Assembly (NCBI RefSeq): GCF_001542625.1
Contig: NZ_CP016279.1
Location: 3,472,001-3,536,000, forward strand
Source: Streptomyces griseochromogenes
GTDB taxonomy: Bacteria; Actinomycetota; Actinomycetes; Streptomycetales; Streptomycetaceae
Reading direction: 5' to 3'
DNA length: 64,000 bases
Below are positions 54,592-64,000 of the stretch, piece after piece. Both the position numbers and the translations under genes were made by a program. Position 1 is the stretch's first letter. Every line of letters begins with the position of its first letter. The notes beneath the pieces are model-generated. The model was given only the letters and a program-made list of their open reading frames with translations, had not been told where the DNA came from and made no database searches.

Positions 54592-55563
54592 TCACTTCCC
54601 GTGGTGCAGCTGCCAGCCCCGCCAGGCCGAGGCGACCATCTCCGGCACCCCGCGCCCGGCCCGCCAGCCCAGTTCCTCGGCGGCCCGCTCCGCCGAGGCG
54701 ACCGCGCGCGGCGCGTCCCCGGGGCGGCGCCCCTCGACCACCGGCGCCCGCCGGTCGCCGGTGACCTCACCGATGACAGTGATCAGCTCGCGCACCGAGA
54801 CGCCCTCGCCGCGGCCGATGTTCAGCGTCAGATCGCCCGTGAGGTCCCCGCCGGCGAGCCGCCGCGCGGCCGCCAGGTGCGCCTCGGCGAGGTCGGCCAC
54901 GTGGATGTAGTCCCGGATGCAGGTGCCGTCCGGCGTCGGATAGTCGGTGCCGAAGATCCGCGGGGCCTCGTCGCGGGTGAGCCGGTCGAAGACCATCGGC
55001 ACGATGTTGAACACACCTGTGTCCGCGAGTTCCGGTTCGGCCGCGCCCGCCACGTTGAAGTAGCGCAGGCACACCGTCGAGATCCCGTGCGCCCGGCCCG
55101 CCGCCCGTACCAGCCACTCCCCGGCCAGCTTGGTCTCGCCGTAGGGGTTCACGGGCGCGCAGGGAGTGTCCTCGGTGATCAGCTCCACGTCCGGGTTGCC
55201 GTACACCGCCGCCGACGAGGAGAACAGCAGGCGGCCGATCCCCGCCTCGGCGACCGCGTCCAGGAGGGTGGCCAGGCCGCCCACGTTCTCCCGGTAGTAG
55301 CGCGTGGGCTCGGCCACGGACTCGGCGACCTGCTTGCGCGCGGCGAGGTGGACGACGCCCGTCACGCCGTACTCCGCGAAGACCCGCTTGAGCAGGCTCC
55401 CGTCCAGCGTCGAGCCCGCGACGAGCGGGATCCCGGCCGGGAGCCGCTCGGGCACCGCGGCCGACAGGTCGTCCAGCGCCACGACGCTCTCCCCGGCGCC
55501 CGCCATGGCCCGCGCCACATGTGCCCCGATGTATCCGGCCCCGCCGGTGATCAGCCACGTCAT
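54592..55563 (-). CDS. galE: UDP-glucose 4-epimerase-like (extended SDR)
   Basis: 323 residues. The NAD motif TWLITGGAGYIGAHVARAM starts the protein; the Ser region LLFSSSAAVYGNP and the Tyr-Lys pair in PYGETKLAGEW complete the active site, with CLRYFNVAGA, TPDGTCIRDYIHVADLA and LNIGRGEGVSVREL typical of GalE. It would supply UDP-galactose (or a related sugar). Its gene is divergent from the polymer operon, with 277 bp between the starts, so it probably serves it. Confidence 0.9.
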   Translation of the reverse strand: MTWLITGGAGYIGAHVARAMAGAGESVVALDDLSAAVPERLPAGIPLVAGSTLDGSLLKRVFAEYGVTGVVHLAARKQVAESVAEPTRYYRENVGGLATLLDAVAEAGIGRLLFSSSAAVYGNPDVELITEDTPCAPVNPYGETKLAGEWLVRAAGRAHGISTVCLRYFNVAGAAEPELADTGVFNIVPMVFDRLTRDEAPRIFGTDYPTPDGTCIRDYIHVADLAEAHLAAARRLAGGDLTGDLTLNIGRGEGVSVRELITVIGEVTGDRRAPVVEGRRPGDAPRAVASAERAAEELGWRAGRGVPEMVASAWRGWQLHHGK

Positions 55564-55840: not shown

Positions 55841-57628
55841 TTGCCGACCGCCATCGTCACCGGTCAGCCGGTCCCCGGATCGTCGCTCGAGAACGATCTG
55901 CGGTCCCTCGGCTTCGACGTGCGCGCGGCCACCGACGCCGCCGAGGCGGAGACCCTGCTCGCCGCCGTCCCCGCCGACCGGCGCGTCGCCCTCGTCGACG
56001 CCCGCTTCGTCGGCCACGTGCACGCACTCCGGCTCGGCCTCACCGACCCGCGCTTCGACCTCGCCGCCGTCCCGGGCGCCGTCACCGCCCAGCCGGCCGC
56101 CCGGCCGGCCCTGACCCGGGCGCTGGCCCGCGAGACCTCCGCCGGCGGCGGTACGGCGGTGGCCGTGGACAGCGTCGCCGACCGCCTCGTCACCGCCCTC
56201 GGCACCGACGGCTGCGAGGTCCACCGGCCCGAACTGGGCAGCCTGGTCGCCGCCGTCCCGGCCGACCCGCAGGGCCGCAACGAGGCCCGGCAGGCCGTCG
56301 CCGCCGTCGACGACGAGGCGATACGCCTGAAGTCGGCCGTGAAGTCCCGCGACGGCTTCTTCACCACGTTCTTCATCAGCCCGTACTCGCGCTACATCGC
56401 CCGCTGGTGCGCCCGCCGGGGCCTGACCCCCAACCAGGTCACCACCGCCTCGCTGCTCACCGCCCTGATCGCGGCGGGCTGCGCGGCGACCGGCACCCGG
56501 GGCGGGTTCATCGCGGCCGGCGTGCTGTTGATCGCCTCGTTCGTGCTGGACTGCGCCGACGGCCAGCTCGCCCGCTACGCCCTGAAGTACTCCACCCTCG
56601 GCGCCTGGCTCGATGCCACCTTCGACCGGGCCAAGGAGTACGCCTACTACGCCGGTCTCGCCCTCGGCGCCGCTCGCGGCGGCGACGACGTGTGGGCGCT
56701 CGCCCTCGGCGCGATGATCCTGCAGACCTGTCGGCACGTGGTCGACTTCTCCTTCAACGAGGCCAACCACGACGCCGCCGCCAACACCAGCCCCACCGCG
56801 GCCCTCTCCGACAAGCTGGACAGCGTCGGCTGGACGGTCTGGGCGCGCCGGATGATAGTCCTGCCCATCGGTGAGCGCTGGGCGATGATCGCCCTCCTCA
56901 CCGCGGCCACCACCCCCCGCATCACCTTCTACGTGCTGCTCGCCGGCTGCGCCTTCGCCGCGACGTACACCACGGCCGGCCGGGTGCTGCGGTCCCTGAC
57001 CCGCAAGGCACAGCGGACGGACCGGGCCGCCCAGGCCCTGGCGGACCTCGCCGACAACGGCCCGGTCGCCTCCCGCATGGCGCATCTCACCCGCGTCCGC
57101 TTCGGTGCCCCGCTGCTGGTGGCCCTGGCCGGCACGGCCGTCCTCGCCGTCTCCCTCTTCTCCGGGAGGACCTGGGCGCCGGTCGCCGGTGCCTTCGTCT
57201 ACGCCGTCACCTCGGGCCAGGCCCTGTGCCGCCCCCTCAAGGGCGCCCTCGACTGGCTCGTCCCCCCGCTGTTCCGGGCCGCCGAATACGGCACCGTCCT
57301 CGTCCTCGCGAGTAAAGCTGGGGTAAACGGGGCGCTTCCTGCGGCTTTCGGCCTGGTGGCCGCCGTCGCCTACCATCACTACGACACGGTGTACCGCATC
57401 CGCGGCAACGCCGGAGCGCCGCCGGCCTGGCTGGTGCGCGCCGTCGGGGGGCAGGAGGGGCGGACACTGCTCGTCACCCTGCTGGCCGCGCTGCTCACCG
57501 CTGGGCAGTTCAAGGTCGCGCTCACGGTCCTCGCCGTGATCGTCGCCCTGGTGGTGCTCGTCGAGAGCATCCGCTTCTGGGTGTCCGCTGGGGCACCCGC
57601 CGTACACGACGAAGGAGAACCCGCATGA
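55841..57628 (+). CDS. CDP-alcohol phosphatidyltransferase-family protein, large multi-domain form
   Basis: 595 residues, TTG start after GGGAG. Residues 1-165 look like a degenerate nucleotidyltransferase domain (ends near VDDEAIRLKSAVKSRDG). Residues about 180-400 form a CDP-alcohol phosphotransferase: the full motif D237-x2-D240-G-x2-A-R-x8-G254-x3-D258-x3-D262 is intact. The C-terminal part has more membrane segments. Such enzymes transfer a phospho-alcohol from a CDP carrier. It overlaps the next gene by ATGA. The overall layout recalls fused cytidylyltransferase/phosphotransferases for inositol phosphodiesters, but the substrate is unknown. Confidence 0.85.
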   Translation: MPTAIVTGQPVPGSSLENDLRSLGFDVRAATDAAEAETLLAAVPADRRVALVDARFVGHVHALRLGLTDPRFDLAAVPGAVTAQPAARPALTRALARETSAGGGTAVAVDSVADRLVTALGTDGCEVHRPELGSLVAAVPADPQGRNEARQAVAAVDDEAIRLKSAVKSRDGFFTTFFISPYSRYIARWCARRGLTPNQVTTASLLTALIAAGCAATGTRGGFIAAGVLLIASFVLDCADGQLARYALKYSTLGAWLDATFDRAKEYAYYAGLALGAARGGDDVWALALGAMILQTCRHVVDFSFNEANHDAAANTSPTAALSDKLDSVGWTVWARRMIVLPIGERWAMIALLTAATTPRITFYVLLAGCAFAATYTTAGRVLRSLTRKAQRTDRAAQALADLADNGPVASRMAHLTRVRFGAPLLVALAGTAVLAVSLFSGRTWAPVAGAFVYAVTSGQALCRPLKGALDWLVPPLFRAAEYGTVLVLASKAGVNGALPAAFGLVAAVAYHHYDTVYRIRGNAGAPPAWLVRAVGGQEGRTLLVTLLAALLTAGQFKVALTVLAVIVALVVLVESIRFWVSAGAPAVHDEGEPA

Positions 57629-58377
57629 TCGGCCTCGTGCTGGCGGCCGGCGCCGGACGGCGTCTGCGCCCCTACACCGACAGCCTTCCCAAGGCTCTGG
57701 TGCCAGTGGGCCCTGCGGGCATAGAGGACTCGATCACCGTGCTCGACCTCACTCTCGGCAACTTCGCCGAGATCGGTCTGACCGAGGTCGCGGTCATCGT
57801 CGGCTACCGCAAGGAGGCCGTGTACGAGCGCAAGGCGGCCCTGGAGGCGAAGTACGGCCTCAAGCTCACCCTGATCGACAACGACAAGGCCGAGGAGTGG
57901 AACAACGCCTACTCCCTGTGGTGCGGCCGTGACGCCCTCAAGGACGGTGTGATCCTCGCCAACGGCGACACCGTCCACCCGGTCTCCGTCGAGAAGACGC
58001 TGCTCGCCGCGCGGGGCGAGGGCAAGAAGATCATCCTCGCCCTCGACACCGTGAAGTCCCTCGCGGACGAGGAGATGAAGGTCGTCGTCGACCCCGAGAA
58101 GGGCATGACGAAGATCACCAAGCTGATGGACCCCGCCGAGGCCACCGGCGAGTACATCGGCGTCACCCTCATCGAGGGCGACGCCGCCCCCGAGCTGGCC
58201 GACGCGCTGAAGACGGTCTGGGAGACCGACCCGCAGCAGTTCTACGAGCACGGCTACCAGGAGCTGGTCAACCGCGGCTTCCGGATCGACGTGGCACCGA
58301 TCGGTGACGTCAAGTGGGTCGAGATCGACAACCACGACGACCTCGCCAAGGGACGGGAGATCGCGTGCCGCTACTGA
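57625..58377 (+). CDS. Sugar/polyol-phosphate nucleotidyltransferase
   Basis: 250 residues. The signature LVLAAGAGRRLRP and LPKALVPVG binds NTP; VILANGDTVHP carries the metal Asp and KWVEIDNHDDL lies near the C-terminus. The size and motifs resemble phosphocholine-, inositol-1-phosphate- or glycerol-phosphate cytidylyltransferases. In this operon it most likely makes the CDP-activated polyol used by the two CDP-alcohol phosphotransferases. It overlaps its neighbours on both sides (4 and 13 bp), a sign of tight coupling. Confidence 0.88.
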   Translation: MIGLVLAAGAGRRLRPYTDSLPKALVPVGPAGIEDSITVLDLTLGNFAEIGLTEVAVIVGYRKEAVYERKAALEAKYGLKLTLIDNDKAEEWNNAYSLWCGRDALKDGVILANGDTVHPVSVEKTLLAARGEGKKIILALDTVKSLADEEMKVVVDPEKGMTKITKLMDPAEATGEYIGVTLIEGDAAPELADALKTVWETDPQQFYEHGYQELVNRGFRIDVAPIGDVKWVEIDNHDDLAKGREIACRY

Positions 58378-59426
58378 CCCGGCTCATTCCCTCGCCGGTC
58401 GTCGTCGACATCCGCCCGGGTGCCCTGGACGACCTGGCCTGTGTCCTCGCCGACGAGCGCATCGCGCAGTCCGGCCGGCTCGCCGTCGCCGTCAGCGGCG
58501 GCTCCGGCACCAAGCTGCGCGAGCGCATCGCCCCCTCGCTGCCCGGCGCCTCCTGGTACGAGGTCGGCGGCGGCACCCTCGACGACGCGATCCGGCTGGC
58601 CGGAGAGATGAAATCCGGCCACTACGACGCGGTGGTCGGGCTCGGCGGCGGCAAGATCATCGACTGCGCCAAGTTCGCCGCGGCGCGCATCGGCCTGCCC
58701 CTGGTCGCCGTGCCGACGAACCTCGCGCACGACGGCCTGTGCTCGCCGGTCGCCACGCTCGACAACGACGCCGGGCGCGGCTCCTACGGTGTGCCGAACC
58801 CGATCGGTGTCGTCATCGACCTGGACGTGATCCGCGAGGCCCCGGCCCGCTTCGTCCGGGCCGGCATCGGCGACGCGATCTCCAACATCAACGCGGTCGC
58901 GGACTGGGAGCTGTCCAACCGCGTCAACGGCGAGAAGATCGACGGTCTCGCCGCGGCCATGGCCCGTCAGGCCGGCGAGGCGGTCCTGCGCCACCCCGGC
59001 GGCATCGGCGACAACGACTTCCTCCAGGTGCTCGCCGAGGCGCTGGTCCTCAGCGGTATCTCGATGTCGATCTCCGGCGACTCCCGGCCGTCCTCCGGCT
59101 CCTGCCACGAGATCAACCACGCCTTCGACCTGCTGTTCCCCAAGCGGGCGGCCGCCCATGGCGAACAGTGCGGGCTCGGCGCGGCCTTCGCGATGTATCT
59201 GCGCGGAGCCCACGAGGAGGCGGCCCACCAGGCCGGGGTGCTACGCCGGCACGGGCTTCCGGTGCTGCCGGAGGAGATCGGCTTCACGGTGGACGAGTTC
59301 GTCCGCGCCGTGGAGTTCGCCCCGGAGACCAGGCCCGGCCGCTACACGATCCTCGAACACCTCGACCTCAAGCCGAACCAGATCAAGGACATCTACGCGG
59401 ACTATGTCAAGGCCATCGGTAGCTGA
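58365..59426 (+). CDS. Glycerol-1-phosphate dehydrogenase-like (iron-containing ADH/EgsA fold)
   Basis: 353 residues, GTG start inside the previous gene. NAD-binding features are VVGLGGGKIIDCAKFAAARIG and VPTNLAHDGLCSPVAT. The metal site is spread over GIGDAISN, SGSCHEINHAFD and HGEQCGLGAAF. This pattern is that of sn-glycerol-1-phosphate dehydrogenases (archaeal EgsA, Bacillus AraM). In bacteria this enzyme makes the glycerol enantiomer not used in ordinary phospholipids. Beside a nucleotidyltransferase and CDP-alcohol phosphotransferases it would supply the polyol phosphate. A different dihydroxyacetone-type substrate is possible. Confidence 0.87.
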   Translation: MPLLTRLIPSPVVVDIRPGALDDLACVLADERIAQSGRLAVAVSGGSGTKLRERIAPSLPGASWYEVGGGTLDDAIRLAGEMKSGHYDAVVGLGGGKIIDCAKFAAARIGLPLVAVPTNLAHDGLCSPVATLDNDAGRGSYGVPNPIGVVIDLDVIREAPARFVRAGIGDAISNINAVADWELSNRVNGEKIDGLAAAMARQAGEAVLRHPGGIGDNDFLQVLAEALVLSGISMSISGDSRPSSGSCHEINHAFDLLFPKRAAAHGEQCGLGAAFAMYLRGAHEEAAHQAGVLRRHGLPVLPEEIGFTVDEFVRAVEFAPETRPGRYTILEHLDLKPNQIKDIYADYVKAIGS

Positions 59427-60183
59427 ACTCCGTCCGGTCGTCCACCCCGCCGGGGTGAAGGACCGGCGCAGCGGTGAGCACTGGGCGGGACGCCTCTACA
59501 TGCGTGAGGTGTCCCTGCGCGTCGACCGCTACCTGGTGAACACCAGGGTCACGCCCAACCAGCTCACGTACCTGATGACCGTCTGCGGCGTGCTCGCGGC
59601 CCCGGCCCTGCTGGTGCCGGGGATCGCGGGAGCCGTGCTCGGTGTGCTCGCCACCCAGCTGTACCTGCTGCTGGACTGCGTCGACGGCGAGATCGCCCGC
59701 TGGAAGAAGCAGTACTCCCTCGGCGGGGTCTACCTGGACCGCGTCGGCGCCTACCTGACCGACGCGGCGGTCCTGGTCGGCCTCGGCCTGCGCGCCGCCG
59801 ACCTGTGGGGGAGCGGGCGCATCGACTGGCTGTGGGCCTTCCTCGGCACCCTCGCCGCCCTCGGCGCGATCCTGATCAAGGCCGAGACCGACCTCGTCGG
59901 CGTCGCCCGGCACCAGGCAGGGAAGCCGCCGGTCCAGGAGGCGGCCTCCGAGCCGCGCTCCTCCGGAATGGCGCTGGCCCGCCGGGCCGCCTCGGCGCTG
60001 AAGTTCCACCGGCTCATCCTCGGTATCGAGGCCTCGCTGCTGATCCTGGTCCTCGCGATCGCGGACCAGATCCACGGCGATCTGTTCTTCACCCGGCTCG
60101 GCACCGCCGTGCTCGCCGGCATCGCCCTGCTGCAGACCCTGCTGCACCTGGTGTCCATCCTCGCCTCCAGCAGGCTGAGGTGA
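59404..60183 (+). CDS. CDP-alcohol phosphatidyltransferase-family protein with an altered motif
   Basis: 259 residues from ATG 59404, overlapping the dehydrogenase gene by 23 bp. After HWAGRLYMREVSLRVDRYLV comes RVTPNQLTYLMTVCGV and the catalytic region: D91-x2-D94-G-x2-A-R-x8-G108-x3-D112-x3-A116. The last position should be Asp, the general base of the family, but is Ala here. About six membrane segments are predicted. It may use another base or act on a special substrate. The start could instead be further in; the ribosome site is weak. Confidence 0.85.
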   Translation: MSRPSVAELRPVVHPAGVKDRRSGEHWAGRLYMREVSLRVDRYLVNTRVTPNQLTYLMTVCGVLAAPALLVPGIAGAVLGVLATQLYLLLDCVDGEIARWKKQYSLGGVYLDRVGAYLTDAAVLVGLGLRAADLWGSGRIDWLWAFLGTLAALGAILIKAETDLVGVARHQAGKPPVQEAASEPRSSGMALARRAASALKFHRLILGIEASLLILVLAIADQIHGDLFFTRLGTAVLAGIALLQTLLHLVSILASSRLR

Positions 60184-60188
60184 GCGGC

Positions 60189-61061
60189 ATGAAGGTCGGC
60201 GCGGTCATCATCACCATGGGCAACCGGCCCGAGGAACTGCGTGCCCTGCTCGACTCGGTCGCCAAGCAGGACGGCGACCGGGTCGAGGTGGTCGTCGTCG
60301 GCAACGGCTCGCCCGTCCCGGACGTCCCCGAAGGCGTACGGACCATGGAGCTGCCCGAGAACCTGGGCATCCCTGGCGGCCGCAACGTCGGCATAGAGGC
60401 CTTCGGGCCCAGTGGCCGCGATGTCGACATACTGCTTTTCCTCGACGACGACGGACTGCTCGCCCGGCACGACACCGCCGAGCTGTGCCGTCAGGCGTTC
60501 GAGGCCAACCCGAAGCTCGGCATCATCAGCTTCCGGATCGCCGACCCGGACACGGGCGAGACCCAGCGCCGGCATGTACCGAGGCTGCGCGCCTCCGACC
60601 CGATGCGTTCCTCCCGGGTCACCACCTTCCTCGGCGGCGCCAACGCCGTCCGCACCCGGGTCTTCGCCGAAGCCGGTGTGCTCCCGGACGAGTTCTTCTA
60701 CGCCCACGAGGAAACCGACCTGGCATGGCGGGCCCTCGACGCGGGCTGGATGATCGACTACCGGTCCGACATGGTGCTGCACCACCCGACGACCGCGCCC
60801 TCCCGGCACGCGGTGTACCACCGCATGGTGGCCCGCAACCGGGTCTGGCTGGCCCGCCGCAACCTGCCCGTGCTCCTCGTCCCCGTCTACCTCGGGGTCT
60901 GGCTGCTGCTCACCCTCCTGCGCCGCCCGTCGGTGCCGGCCCTGAAGGCCTGGTTCGGCGGCTTCAGAGAGGGCTGGACCACTTCGTGCGGCCCCCGTCG
61001 CCCCATGCGCTGGCGTACCGTGTGGAGGCTCACCCGACTGGGCCGGCCCCCGGTCATCTGA
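60189..61061 (+). CDS. Family 2 glycosyltransferase
   Basis: 290 residues. GT-A fold with VGAVIITMGNRPEELRALLDSV at the N-terminus, NLGIPGGRNVGI, the metal motif LLFLDDDG, then FLGGANAVRTRVF and the catalytic EETDLAWRALDAG. The layout is like rhamnosyl- or galactofuranosyltransferases acting on cell-wall polymers. A C-terminal hydrophobic stretch (VYLGVWLLLTLLRRP) may bring it to the membrane. It starts five bases after the preceding gene and probably decorates or extends the polymer made by this operon. Confidence 0.9.
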   Translation: MKVGAVIITMGNRPEELRALLDSVAKQDGDRVEVVVVGNGSPVPDVPEGVRTMELPENLGIPGGRNVGIEAFGPSGRDVDILLFLDDDGLLARHDTAELCRQAFEANPKLGIISFRIADPDTGETQRRHVPRLRASDPMRSSRVTTFLGGANAVRTRVFAEAGVLPDEFFYAHEETDLAWRALDAGWMIDYRSDMVLHHPTTAPSRHAVYHRMVARNRVWLARRNLPVLLVPVYLGVWLLLTLLRRPSVPALKAWFGGFREGWTTSCGPRRPMRWRTVWRLTRLGRPPVI

Positions 61062-61129
61062 CAAGCTCGTCGGTGCGGGGCGCGCGTTCCCGGTGCGCCC
61101 GGGGAGGGATCCGACGACGCCCGCGAACG

Positions 61130-61198
61130 ATGAATCCGACGCAGCCGACGCACATGACGCACAACGACGTACCCGAAGACGAAAGCTTCCTCCTGTGA
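61130..61198 (+). CDS. Possible 22-residue leader ORF of the exporter genes
   Basis: ATG 61130 to TGA 61198 encodes a short polar peptide rich in Thr, His, Asp and Glu. Its stop overlaps the GTG of the permease gene (GTGA), so its translation could couple the two. The nearest purine-rich ribosome site is 22 bases upstream, which is too far, so it may not be translated. Confidence 0.35.
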   Translation: MNPTQPTHMTHNDVPEDESFLL

Positions 61199-62124
61199 GT
61201 GAGACAACGCATGACGGCGGTGTCGCGGTGACCGCGGCCCCGTCACCCGACGAGGGACTGACGGCGGCGCAGCTCGCCGCCAAGTACGGGCTCGCCGTGA
61301 GCGGCGCCCGGCCCTCCCTCGTCGAGTACGTCCGTCAGCTGTGGGGACGGCGCCACTTCGTCCTCGCCTTCTCCCAGGCGAAGCTGACCGCGCAGTACAG
61401 CCAGGCCAAGCTCGGCCAGCTCTGGCAGGTGGCGACGCCCCTGCTGAACGCGGCCGTGTACTACTTCATCTTCGGCGTCATCCTGCACGCGAGCAAAGGC
61501 ATGTCCAAGGACGTGTACATCCCGTTCCTGGTCACGGGCGTGTTCGTCTTCACGTTCACGCAGAGCTCGGTCATGACGGGCGTCCGCGCCATCTCCGGCA
61601 ACCTCGGCCTGGTGCGCGCCCTGCACTTCCCGCGCGCCTCGCTGCCCATCTCCTTCTCCCTGCAGCAGCTGCAGCAGCTGCTCTTCTCGATGATCGTGCT
61701 GTTCGTCGTCGCGATAGGATTCGGCAGCTACCCGAGCGCCTCCTGGCTGCTGATCGTGCCGGTCCTGGTGCTGCAGTTCCTGTTCAACACCGGGCTCGCG
61801 CTGATCGTGGCCCGCATGGGCGCCAAGACGCCGGACCTCGCCCAGCTGATGCCGTTCATCCTGCGCACCTGGATGTACACGTCCGGTGTCATGTTCTCCA
61901 TCAACAAGATGATGGAGGGCCGCTCCGAGCTGTCGGTCCGGCTGCTCGAGGTCAACCCGGCCGCCGTCTACATGGACCTGATGCGCTACGCGCTGATCGA
62001 CGGCTACCACGCCTCGAACCTGCCGCCGCACGTGTGGGCCATCGCCCTGTTCTGGGCCGTGGTCGTCTTCGCCGGCGGTTTCGTGTACTTCTGGAAGGCG
62101 GAGGAGAGGTACGGCCGTGGCTGA
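61195..62124 (+). CDS. ABC-2-type polysaccharide exporter permease (TagG/Wzm-like)
   Basis: 309 residues from GTG 61195. A cytoplasmic N-terminus with an amphipathic segment (YVRQLWGRRHFVLAFSQAKLTAQYSQAKLGQLWQVATPLL) leads into about six membrane helices: VYYFIFGVIL, FLVTGVFVFTFTQ, LLFSMIVLFVVAIGFG and so on. This is the pattern of permeases that export lipid-linked teichoic acids or O-antigens. It overlaps the ATPase gene by 8 bp. The cargo is presumably the product of the upstream operon genes. Confidence 0.92.
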   Translation: MSETTHDGGVAVTAAPSPDEGLTAAQLAAKYGLAVSGARPSLVEYVRQLWGRRHFVLAFSQAKLTAQYSQAKLGQLWQVATPLLNAAVYYFIFGVILHASKGMSKDVYIPFLVTGVFVFTFTQSSVMTGVRAISGNLGLVRALHFPRASLPISFSLQQLQQLLFSMIVLFVVAIGFGSYPSASWLLIVPVLVLQFLFNTGLALIVARMGAKTPDLAQLMPFILRTWMYTSGVMFSINKMMEGRSELSVRLLEVNPAAVYMDLMRYALIDGYHASNLPPHVWAIALFWAVVVFAGGFVYFWKAEERYGRG

Positions 62125-62920
62125 GCAGAACATCGCCGAACAGGACATCCGGGACCCGCGCCCGACGGTCATCGCGGACGACCTGCACATCGTCTACCGG
62201 GTCAACGGAGCCAAGACCGGCAAGGGCAGCGCGACGGCGGCCCTCAGCCGCATTCTCAGGCGAGGCTCCGACGACTCGGCGCGCGGGGTGCGCAAGGTGC
62301 ACGCCGTGCGCGGTGTCTCCTTCGTCGCCTACCGCGGCGAGGCCATCGGCCTGATCGGCTCCAACGGCTCCGGCAAGTCCACGCTGCTGCGCGCCATCGC
62401 CGGCCTGCTGCCCGCCGAGAAGGGCAAGGTCTACACCGACGGCCAGCCCTCGCTGCTCGGTGTGAACGCGGCCCTGATGAACGACCTGACCGGAGAGCGG
62501 AACGTCATCCTCGGCGGTCTCGCCATGGGCATGTCCCGTGAGCAGGTCAAGGAGCGCTACCAGGACATCGTCGACTTCTCCGGGATCAACGAGAAGGGCG
62601 ACTTCATCACGCTGCCGATGCGGACGTACTCCTCCGGCATGGCTGCCCGGCTGCGCTTCTCCATCGCCGCCGCCAAGGACCACGACGTCCTCATGATCGA
62701 CGAGGCCCTCGCCACCGGCGACCGCAAGTTCCAGAAGCGCTCCGAGGAGCGCATCCGGGAGCTGCGCAAGGAAGCCGGCACGGTGTTTCTGGTCAGTCAC
62801 AACAACAAGTCCATCCGCGACACCTGCAACCGTGTCCTGTGGCTGGAACGCGGCGAACTGCGCATGGACGGACCCACCGAAGAGGTCCTCAAGGAGTACG
62901 AGAAGTTCACGGGCAAGTAG
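62117..62920 (+). CDS. ABC exporter ATPase (TagH/Wzt-like)
   Basis: 267 residues, GTG start. Walker A GSNGSGKST, signature YSSGMAARLRFSIA, Walker B DVLMIDEAL and the switch His in VSHNNKSIRD are present. The N-terminal insert before the core (RVNGAKTGKGSATAALSRIL) is usual for TagH-type proteins, but the large C-terminal substrate-binding domain of Wzt is missing, so export probably does not need recognition of a terminal cap. It pairs with the preceding permease and closes the polymer operon. Confidence 0.93.
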   Translation: MAEQNIAEQDIRDPRPTVIADDLHIVYRVNGAKTGKGSATAALSRILRRGSDDSARGVRKVHAVRGVSFVAYRGEAIGLIGSNGSGKSTLLRAIAGLLPAEKGKVYTDGQPSLLGVNAALMNDLTGERNVILGGLAMGMSREQVKERYQDIVDFSGINEKGDFITLPMRTYSSGMAARLRFSIAAAKDHDVLMIDEALATGDRKFQKRSEERIRELRKEAGTVFLVSHNNKSIRDTCNRVLWLERGELRMDGPTEEVLKEYEKFTGK

Positions 62921-63214
62921 CCCGGGTTCGGCCGGAGCCCGCCGGAACTCCCGGTGGGGCCCGCGTCCGCAAAGGAAGCGTCAACTCGCTCTGGTCTTAG
63001 GAATCTTGACGCCAATCGGTGTGTTGTTGTGATGCGCAGGACACCCCGCCTGACCTCGCTGCGTTGTACAACGTAAGCTGTACCGGTCCCGGAAAGCGGC
63101 AAGTGGGGCGATAATGCGCGACAGCCTTTGCCGGGCAGCCCGGCGGAAGTCCGGGCGGCGTGTCCGAAATAGTGTGTATTGGGTCGGCAGTGTAGAACGG
63201 GAGATGTGACGGCA
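62921..63214. other. Intergenic region before the hopanoid genes
   Basis: About 290 bp, less GC-rich than elsewhere. It ends the exporter operon and should hold the hopanoid promoter. TTGACG near 63006 is a possible -35. No gene is seen here; a palindrome is listed separately. Confidence 0.45.
63062..63073. promoter_or_regulatory. Perfect 12-bp palindrome upstream of hpnC
   Basis: CGTTGTACAACG reads the same on both strands. It lies about 215 bp before the hpnC start in the presumed promoter region and may bind a dimeric regulator of hopanoid synthesis. Confidence 0.45.
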
Positions 63215-63280
63215 ATGGTTACGGAAACTCCCCAGCTCAGCGCAGTATGTGCCGTCCCCGCCCAGGGCAGCGCGCGGTGA
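63215..63280 (+). CDS. Possible 21-residue leader ORF before hpnC
   Basis: ATG 63215 opens a frame MVTETPQLSAVCAV... that ends at TGA 63278-63280, overlapping the hpnC GTG (GTGA). GGGAG lies 11 bases upstream, an acceptable distance. Like the one before the exporter permease, it would couple its translation to the next gene. No function is known. Confidence 0.4.
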   Translation: MVTETPQLSAVCAVPAQGSAR

Positions 63281-64000
63281 CGGGAACCGACACGGCGCCC
63301 GCACTGGAGCGCGCCACGCTGGACAAGGCCACGAGCGAGAACTTCCCCGTGGCCCCCTTCTTCCTGCCCCGGGCCTGGCGCGACGACCTCATGGCCGTCT
63401 ACGGCTTCGCCCGCCTCGTGGACGACATCGGCGACGGCGATCTGGCCCCCGGTGGAGCCGACGCGCGGATCCTCGGCGTGTCGGCCGGTGAGGCCGAGGA
63501 CCGTCTGATCCTCCTCGACGCCTTCGAGGCCGACCTGCGGCGTGTCTTCGACGGCGCGCCCCGCCATCCCCTGCTGCGCCGCCTGCAGCCCACCGTCCGC
63601 CGCCACGCCCTCACCCCCGAGCCCTTCCTCGGCCTGATCGCCGCCAACCGCCAGGACCAGCTGGTCACCCGGTACGAGACCTACGACGACCTCCTCGCCT
63701 ACTGCGAACTGTCCGCCAACCCCGTCGGCCGCCTCGTCCTCGCCGTCACCGGCACCGCGACCCCCGAGCGGAACCGTCTCTCCGACGCGGTCTGCACCGC
63801 CCTGCAGATCGTGGAGCACCTCCAGGACGTCGCGGAGGACCTCGGCCGCGACCGGATCTATCTGCCGGCTGCGGACATGAAGCGCTTTCACGTCCAGGAA
63901 ACCGATCTCGCCGCGAAAACCGCGGGCGCATCGGTGCGCGCCCTGGTTGCATACGAAGCGCAACGCGCCCGCGATCTGCTGAATGAAGGCGCCCCCCTGG
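63277..64000 (+). CDS. hpnC: Squalene/phytoene synthase family protein HpnC, 5' part
   Basis: About 241 residues before the right edge. GTG start with an N-terminus typical for HpnC (TSENFPVAPFFLPRAWRDDL). The first Asp-rich motif is LVDDIGDGD and the second EHLQDVAEDLGRDR; ANPVGRLVL lies between. HpnC works with HpnD and HpnE in the three-step route from two farnesyl diphosphates to squalene, the precursor of hopanoids. It starts the hopanoid cluster, whose other genes should follow. Phytoene synthase is the alternative, less likely by context. Confidence 0.88.
   Translation, partial: MTGTDTAPALERATLDKATSENFPVAPFFLPRAWRDDLMAVYGFARLVDDIGDGDLAPGGADARILGVSAGEAEDRLILLDAFEADLRRVFDGAPRHPLLRRLQPTVRRHALTPEPFLGLIAANRQDQLVTRYETYDDLLAYCELSANPVGRLVLAVTGTATPERNRLSDAVCTALQIVEHLQDVAEDLGRDRIYLPAADMKRFHVQETDLAAKTAGASVRALVAYEAQRARDLLNEGAPL

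Follow-up and report, generated by a model that had tools for sequence, protein, structure and literature searches.

A seven-gene Streptomyces operon as a candidate teichoic-acid-type glycerol-phosphate module with a TagD-free donor pair

What product is assembled by an operon that joins two membrane proteins of the cytidine diphosphate (CDP)-alcohol phosphotransferase family to a nucleotidyltransferase, a glycerol-1-phosphate-dehydrogenase-like enzyme, a family 2 glycosyltransferase and a TagGH-type exporter is the question raised by positions 55841..62920 of the window analysed here, a stretch of 64,000 nucleotides from the 10.76-Mb single-contig genome of Streptomyces griseochromogenes, whose closest named proteins belong to Streptomyces. 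The seven genes, each open on the + strand at the coordinates given below, are called CDP1, NTP (the nucleotidyltransferase), G1PDH (the glycerol-1-phosphate-dehydrogenase-like gene), CDP2, GT2 (the family 2 glycosyltransferase), permease and ATPase. The operon is probably a teichoic-acid-type glycerol-phosphate module, in which NTP and the dehydrogenase would lead from dihydroxyacetone phosphate to CDP-glycerol without TagD, the CDP-glycerol being probably of the sn-1 configuration. The anatomy of the locus, its conservation, the lack of a TagD match in the same genome, the linkage seen in some relatives between the NTP-dehydrogenase pair and TagF-type genes, and the presence of TagD instead of the pair in another relative are direct observations. 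An earlier sequence-only reading had held that the genes make, activate, polymerise, glycosylate and export a polyol-phosphate polymer; the polyol-phosphate envelope polymer and the TagGH-type export are supported by the present analysis, and the glycerol-1-phosphate chemistry at the level of the enzyme family.

The gene block is kept together beyond chance. In 11/11 further Streptomyces loci sampled at about 20 kb (L049-L051 and L137-L144; a second dehydrogenase copy, L048, was excluded), all seven genes and the downstream hopanoid gene hpnC follow one another in the same order, and galE is found in 7/11. In a class sample of 296 genomes, searched with Nocardiopsis queries for the dehydrogenase (E<=1e-60) and CDP2 (E<=1e-25), the former was detected in 72 and the latter in 101 genomes; where the dehydrogenase was present, the starts of the two genes lay at most 2.5 kb apart in 59/72 genomes, and in 28/28 within the genus. 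Farther away, the best 80 dehydrogenase loci from the genomes of named species (none titled Streptomyces, 23 of them shorter than 20 kb; the named loci below) contained NTP in 77, CDP1 in 28, GT2 in 26, the ATPase in 22, the permease in 16 and a CDP2 match in 44 cases, some of the last being weak matches to another CDP-alcohol transferase; strong CDP2 matches were present in 29/80 loci, belonging to Nocardiopsaceae, Streptosporangiaceae, Nitriliruptorales, Thermoleophilia and others.

The donor pair gives the first indication of the chemistry. The NTP product (57625..58377, PF00483, NTP_transferase) is a LicC/PntC/IPCT-like protein, for which the function of a cytidine triphosphate (CTP):sn-glycerol-1-phosphate cytidylyltransferase is proposed; a profile of 15 members scored LicC at 101 bits, PntC at 90 and the Thermotoga IPCT at 74, with sugar and other nucleotidyltransferases at no more than 55, so that by profile it is closest to the CTP:alcohol-phosphate cytidylyltransferases and not to the sugar nucleotidyltransferases. 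The phosphonate chemistry raised by the similarity to PntC was discarded, no PepM being found among the Pfam matches of the operon (the genome was not searched for PepM). The dehydrogenase (58365..59426, Fe-ADH_2 family, PF13685) is, judged by its matches, closest to the glycerol-1-phosphate dehydrogenases EgsA/AraM: a profile of 14 members ranked 3ce9 first (227 bits), a chain itself named glycerol dehydrogenase, followed by the glycerol-1-phosphate dehydrogenase 4rgq (212), 5fb3 (183) and 9h4x (128), with other chains named glycerol dehydrogenase at 82 bits or less; a single-sequence search put 4rgq and 4rfl first among the solved structures, and among the NCBIfam models the glycerol-1-phosphate dehydrogenase NF002022 reached 241 bits and glycerol dehydrogenase 86. 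The residues D170, H248 and H265, which we take to be metal ligands by transfer from glycerol dehydrogenase, are present in the window protein; in the alignment A1 both histidines are invariant and the aspartate nearly so (Glu in 1/14). The genome holds one close copy of each of the two genes, and its further matches are weak. Second NTP-dehydrogenase pairs were noticed away from the main locus in other Streptomyces genomes (L188 and L193), with a PF04464 gene at a distance of about 7 kb in one case, and these fit the reported duplication of NTP in 76/929 genomes (PMC13118837).

The gene that would be expected to supply CDP-glycerol to a teichoic acid, TagD (TIGR01518), had no match in the genome at E<=1e-3. 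PcrB, another consumer of sn-glycerol-1-phosphate (Gro1P), had no match there either, and the use of Gro1P for ether lipids was rejected on that ground. Five PF04464 (TagF-type) domains are encoded in the genome at 9.79-9.80 and 6.86 Mb, none of them in the operon; the TagF-type cluster at 9.79 Mb has a separate permease-ATPase pair, its ATPase being 85% identical to that of the operon. Over the class sample, with the cut-offs of E<=1e-10 for PF04464 (117/296 genomes) and at least 100 bits for TagD (22/296), PF04464 occurred in 69/72 genomes with the dehydrogenase and in 48/224 without it (the three exceptions were G476, G521 and G601), and TagD in 0/72 and 22/224, respectively. The 72 genomes span nine families, each with at least one member having both the dehydrogenase and PF04464.

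The same relationship is visible at the level of single loci. In L190, one strand carries in succession NTP, the dehydrogenase, permease, ATPase, a fusion of GT2 with PF04464 and a GT4 gene, with no CDP1 or CDP2 match; L189 has NTP, dehydrogenase, permease, ATPase, CDP1, CDP2 and GT2, with the PF04464 gene on the opposite strand; L191 has CDP1, NTP and the dehydrogenase near PF04464; and L188 and L192 are second Streptomyces dehydrogenase copies near PF04464, the former also with NTP. The distance from the dehydrogenase to the PF04464 gene was 4.4-7.0 kb in L034, L188, L189, L191 and L192; L188-L192 were picked because both genes shared a contig, and are thus examples and not a rate. In L043, a polymerase match near a dehydrogenase-like frame was discounted, as it overlaps a different open frame. 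Two TagF profiles built from the longest open frames of loci (five for the first), some of these frames probably being on the wrong strand, were given no weight in judging the linkage. The complementary case is L178, which belongs to a set of 14 loci with CDP2 but no dehydrogenase close by (for 11 of the 14, the genome has no dehydrogenase match at all), where a GT2 with a TarS linker, a second GT2, CDP2, galE and TagD lie on one strand in a genome lacking a dehydrogenase match, the TagD scoring 204.8 bits over the curated cut-off of 165.4. TagD here takes the place of NTP and the dehydrogenase, which ties CDP2 to CDP-glycerol; only one other sampled genome, G569, has both CDP2 and TagD at 100 bits or more, with the two genes 415 kb apart. 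By this pattern of occurrence, NTP and the dehydrogenase seem to replace TagD.

The following scheme would accommodate these data. The dehydrogenase, to go by its family, would reduce dihydroxyacetone phosphate to sn-glycerol-1-phosphate, which the LicC-like NTP would join to CTP, yielding CDP-glycerol of the sn-1 configuration, the two enzymes thereby substituting for TagD and its supply of glycerol-3-phosphate. The AF2299-like CDP1 would transfer glycerol phosphate to a membrane-bound acceptor, with CDP2 as its partner or as a second transferase, and GT2 (60189..61061, PF00535, Glycos_transf_2; one membrane segment near the C-terminus predicted by hydropathy) would add a sugar to the acceptor. 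For the main chain, the same donor may feed the TagF-type polymerases whose genes lie at other places in the genome, and the TagGH-type ATP-binding cassette (ABC) pair would carry the product outward. This pair consists of an ABC-2 permease of the TagG/Wzm type (61195..62124, PF01061, ABC2_membrane; 56 bits to a galactan-export permease family, under its cut-off of 380) and an ATPase of the TagH/Wzt type (62117..62920, ABC_tran), for which TagH was the best of 181 NCBIfam families with 182 bits, though under its cut-off of 320. The family assignments made earlier for the nucleotidyltransferase, the dehydrogenase, GT2, the ABC pair and galE are all backed by Pfam or NCBIfam.

Of the two transferase-like proteins, CDP1 (55841..57628) is a membrane CDP-alcohol phosphotransferase of 595 residues, with a short, poorly conserved N-terminal part, a catalytic domain at about residues 170-320 (PF01066, CDP-OH_P_transf) and a C-terminal DUF5941 (PF19365). 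Its motif D..DG..AR(x8)G...D...D is complete and was invariant in the 18 sequences of the alignment A2, from which the degenerate Nocardiopsaceae forms were left out. The nearest solved relative of CDP1, by sequence and by predicted fold, is AF2299: its chains took Foldseek ranks 1-4 for the CDP1 model, with a TM-score of 0.50-0.52 by target, the mean predicted local distance difference test score (pLDDT) of the model being 76.5 and low over the first 80 residues. AF2299 uses CDP-glycerol as donor and does not process lipids (PMC4634129). For the N-terminal part, modelled at low confidence, a profile search of the PDB returned weak MgtE matches only, and a cytidylyltransferase fold was no more than suggested (hhalign probability 60, E 8.5e-5); neither was retained. 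DUF5941, of which no mention was found in the literature searched, stands as a gene of its own in Streptosporangium L108 and Nocardiopsis L117. None of the 11 Nocardiopsaceae loci contained an open frame bearing the complete CDP1 motif (L114 is cut short upstream), and it is CDP1, not CDP2, that decays in this family; at L117:7786-8550 and in other Nocardiopsaceae loci a CDP1 homologue without the CDP-alcohol transferase motif was seen, with DUF5941 persisting as its own gene.

CDP2 (59404..60183, PF01066) is the atypical member of the two, and the earlier description of both proteins as CDP-alcohol phosphotransferases holds for family membership, the full motif being confined to CDP1. In the window and in 11/11 other Streptomyces operons (12/12), the fourth Asp of the CDP2 motif is replaced by Ala, while the window protein retains the first three Asp and the CDP-binding stretch P(N)xx(T); of 2196 relatives found for the Nocardiopsis CDP2, the 120 ranked best all have His at this position, as do 29/29 strong CDP2 matches among the named loci. 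Ala is also found in three CDP2 paralogues, from this genome and two others of the genus (L172, L173 and L176). The one in this genome (G000:C1:730752-731507, L172:8747-9553) lies beside a 2OG-Fe(II) oxygenase gene. The fourth Asp has been described as the probable catalytic base (PMC4634129, PMC6506517), and in a mycobacterial relative the substitution D93N almost eliminates activity (PMC4634129). By analogy with eukaryotic CHPT1, for which a His adjoining the third Asp has been proposed to take part in catalysis (PMC10182977), a His base is thinkable in CDP2. Across the Streptomyces loci CDP2 is 85-94% identical to the window protein and CDP1 68-83%; being better conserved than CDP1, it is not decaying. 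This subfamily would be a test case for CDP-alcohol transferase function without the fourth Asp.

Several points weigh against the proposed module. The fold match of CDP1 to AF2299 is partial, with a TM-score of only 0.29-0.30 by query, and the dehydrogenase is under the NCBIfam cut-off for archaeal glycerol-1-phosphate dehydrogenase (NF002022), with 241 of 413 bits. The finding of TagD in 0/72 dehydrogenase genomes depends on the 100-bit limit, which was set after the list was seen; at E<=1e-10, TIGR01518 matches of 49.7-68.0 bits are present in 11/72 (ten of the same genus and one other), and the curated cut-off is passed by just 3/296 genomes. The sampled genomes are related and the counts ignore kinship, so that Fisher p values overstate the associations. 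There is neither TagD nor the dehydrogenase route in 34/117 PF04464 genomes, and a PF04464-like gene was seen in 0/80 named loci within flanks of at most 10 kb per side. The sn-1 handedness is a prediction from the enzyme family, and the TagD of L178 would supply the sn-3 form to a related CDP2. The PF04464 polymerases may use CDP-ribitol, an IspD-SDR fusion being encoded in this genome (L185). In 44/80 named loci, nearly all of Micromonosporaceae, the gene after NTP and the dehydrogenase encodes another CDP-alcohol transferase, whose motif is intact, and no permease match was obtained. Finally, 36/101 genomes have CDP2-type genes without the dehydrogenase, so that the operon is most readily regarded as made up of a donor module, the pair of NTP and dehydrogenase, and an assembly module of CDP1, CDP2, GT2 and the ABC genes, which frequently occur together but need not.

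An alternative is a scheme of the same kind with another polyol, in which the dehydrogenase reduces a different keto-phosphate and the polymer carries the corresponding polyol phosphate. Besides the missed NF002022 cut-off, it is favoured by the NCBIfam relatives of the dehydrogenase, which include glycerol dehydrogenase and a glycolaldehyde reductase, and by the related assembly genes beside an IspD-SDR fusion in Streptosporangium; it is nevertheless distinctly unlikely, as glycerol-1-phosphate dehydrogenases and 3ce9 are by far the best matches of the dehydrogenase among solved structures, AF2299 takes CDP-glycerol as its donor (PMC4634129), and TagD takes the place of the pair in L178 and, at a score of at least 100 bits, was absent from every sampled genome with the dehydrogenase. 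The fusions themselves are located at L108:5555-6841, beside CDP1 in Streptosporangium, and in this genome at G000:C1:9257236-9257928, elsewhere than the operon; the L108 protein scores under the ispD and ribitol-5-phosphate cut-offs. Such fusions could presumably make CDP-ribitol, by likeness to Acs1/Bcs1. CDP2 genes lacking a nearby dehydrogenase (L168-L181) possibly serve another polyol donor; for several of them the neighbours include GT2, ABC genes, a gene for a MobA-like nucleotidyltransferase or one resembling PF04464. Inositol-phosphate synthase as the polyol source of the loci without dehydrogenase had been a guess by gene length, and was abandoned once all four of the genes checked turned out to encode GT2.

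The Micromonosporaceae version (L061-L131), for its part, perhaps represents a smaller pathway with another product. Together with AF2299 and DIPP synthase, which are the closest solved relatives and neither of which processes lipids, its composition of NTP, dehydrogenase and transferase with no permease match is what would be expected if the product, instead of a polymer, were a lipid head group or a small phosphodiester of the kind known from Archaeoglobus (glycerophosphoinositol or diglycerol phosphate). For the window operon this is very unlikely in view of the TagGH-type exporter and GT2 in 11/11 Streptomyces loci, the junction of the pair with a TagF-type polymerase in L190, and that of CDP2 with TagD and the TarS-linker glycosyltransferase in L178.

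Compared with the wall teichoic acid system of Bacillus (TagD, TagB/F, TagGH), the glycerol-phosphate module would share the CDP-glycerol donor and the TagGH-type exporter, and TagF-type polymerases are encoded in the same genome and, in L190, in the same operon; it differs in the lack of a TagD match in the genome, the predicted sn-1 and not sn-3 donor, and the two CDP-alcohol-transferase-like proteins with no PF04464 gene in the operon. In archaea, the G1PDH-type dehydrogenase serves the Gro1P route. The Archaeoglobus glycerophosphoinositol pathway (Gro1P, CDP-glycerol, AF2299) is alike in the type of dehydrogenase, CDP-glycerol and an AF2299-like transferase, whereas the present system is bacterial and adds GT2 and an ABC exporter. 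CpgD of Caulobacter (CDP-glycerate, ceramide diphosphoglycerate) likewise is annotated as a nucleotidyltransferase and uses CTP to activate a C3 phosphate on the way to a molecule of the envelope, but its substrate is phosphoglycerate, not glycerol phosphate, and the product a sphingolipid head group (PMC12275187).

As for handedness, it had been supposed that bacteria seldom use the sn-1 enantiomer, which is too broad: in Bacillus the wall teichoic acid is sn-3, while the lipoteichoic acid (LTA) is built of sn-glycerol-1-phosphate, its units coming from phosphatidylglycerol (PMC7086022), and it is free Gro1P and CDP-1-glycerol that have been thought likely absent from bacteria (PMC8262930). 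The TagF-like Cps7D can polymerise from CDP-1-glycerol and Cps3D cannot, and the ability of the former supports the module proposed here; in 2021, the Archaeoglobus cytidylyltransferase with a preference for Gro1P was still described as not identified (PMC8262930). With regard to novelty, the block had been put forward as undescribed; it was in fact listed in 2026, with no pathway assigned, as a region of synteny in Streptomyces that includes tagG, tagH and araM (PMC13118837), and no description of the pathway was found in the literature searched, subscription journals being mostly outside reach. If the proposal is true, an archaeal-type enantiomer would be added to the cell-wall chemistry of bacteria, and NTP would probably be the gene for CTP:glycerol-1-phosphate cytidylyltransferase, the first assigned to this activity as far as the literature searched shows.

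A further candidate product is the Streptomyces LTA, with CDP1 and CDP2 replacing LtaS by building, on a cytoplasmic glycolipid, an sn-glycerol-1-phosphate chain or the units with which it begins. The route would resemble LtaS-type synthesis in its sn-glycerol-1-phosphate polymer, if the handedness is right, and would differ from it in the use of a nucleotide donor inside the cell, the units of LtaS being derived from phosphatidylglycerol outside (PMC7086022). Poly(glycerol phosphate) LTA has been reported in S. hygroscopicus and preliminarily in S. coelicolor, and LTA also in Thermobifida fusca, with no clear LtaS orthologues (a statement of that source and not of a search of this genome) and with discussion of an alternative pathway (PMC3196553); the Gro1P units of the Bacillus LTA (PMC7086022) agree with this. 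The same source prefers steps in common with wall teichoic acid synthesis (tagB/tagF) and records no detectable LTA in S. verticillus (PMC3196553), both of which speak against an LTA product. In favour of it, T. fusca carries both CDP2 and the dehydrogenase, and CDP-alcohol transferases are membrane enzymes. Such a product is nonetheless unlikely, and to our knowledge no CDP-alcohol transferase polymerises. The origin of Streptomyces poly(glycerol phosphate) in the absence of LtaS is an open question in print (PMC3196553); the genome studied here is also without TagD, and the locus names candidate enzymes. Taken jointly, the claims that an actinobacterial route from the G1PDH and a LicC-like cytidylyltransferase to CDP-sn-1-glycerol displaces TagD, that teichoic acids made in the cytoplasm would be opposite-handed to those of Bacillus, that this could explain poly(glycerol phosphate) LTA without LtaS, and that the His/Ala subfamily of CDP2 assists assembly, are held tentatively and with somewhat less than even confidence. 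Polymers of sn-glycerol-1-phosphate resistant to the sn-3-specific GlpQ would be predicted.

The layout of the operon is compact. CDP1 and NTP overlap by 4 bases, NTP and G1PDH by 13, G1PDH and CDP2 by 23 and permease and ATPase by 8, and CDP2 and GT2 are 5 bases apart, so that the genes overlap or abut as had been stated, save for GT2 and permease, which are separated by 133 bases; the start codons assumed are TTG for CDP1 and GTG for the dehydrogenase, permease and ATPase. Downstream, 326 bases after the ATPase, lies hpnC on the same strand (63247..64000, running past the window end; TIGR03464 over cut-off). In the interval, one weak consensus match to a terminator was found at 63009, the region total of 3 being comparable to that of shuffled sequences (mean 1.6, standard deviation 1.2), and the RNA fold of 62918-63020 was unremarkable (z -0.28). 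Modification of hopanoids by the operon, suggested by this proximity and its constancy in the 11/11 Streptomyces loci, is hardly credible, since hpnC was near in 0/80 named loci (23/80 <20 kb); hopanoid coupling as a general function was rejected on the same count, and the hopanoid neighbourhood, argued earlier to be a sign of an envelope role, is not supported as one. The divergent galE (54592..55563, - strand, TIGR01179 over cut-off) is correctly described as such, while its linkage is inconstant, with 0/80 named loci beside the 7/11 of Streptomyces; lying next to CDP2 in L178, it may have a role in the pathway. Sulfotransferase-family genes, which perhaps decorate the product, were observed near the cluster in three distant loci (L033:3767-4891, L034:7622-8653 and L036:11829-13010).

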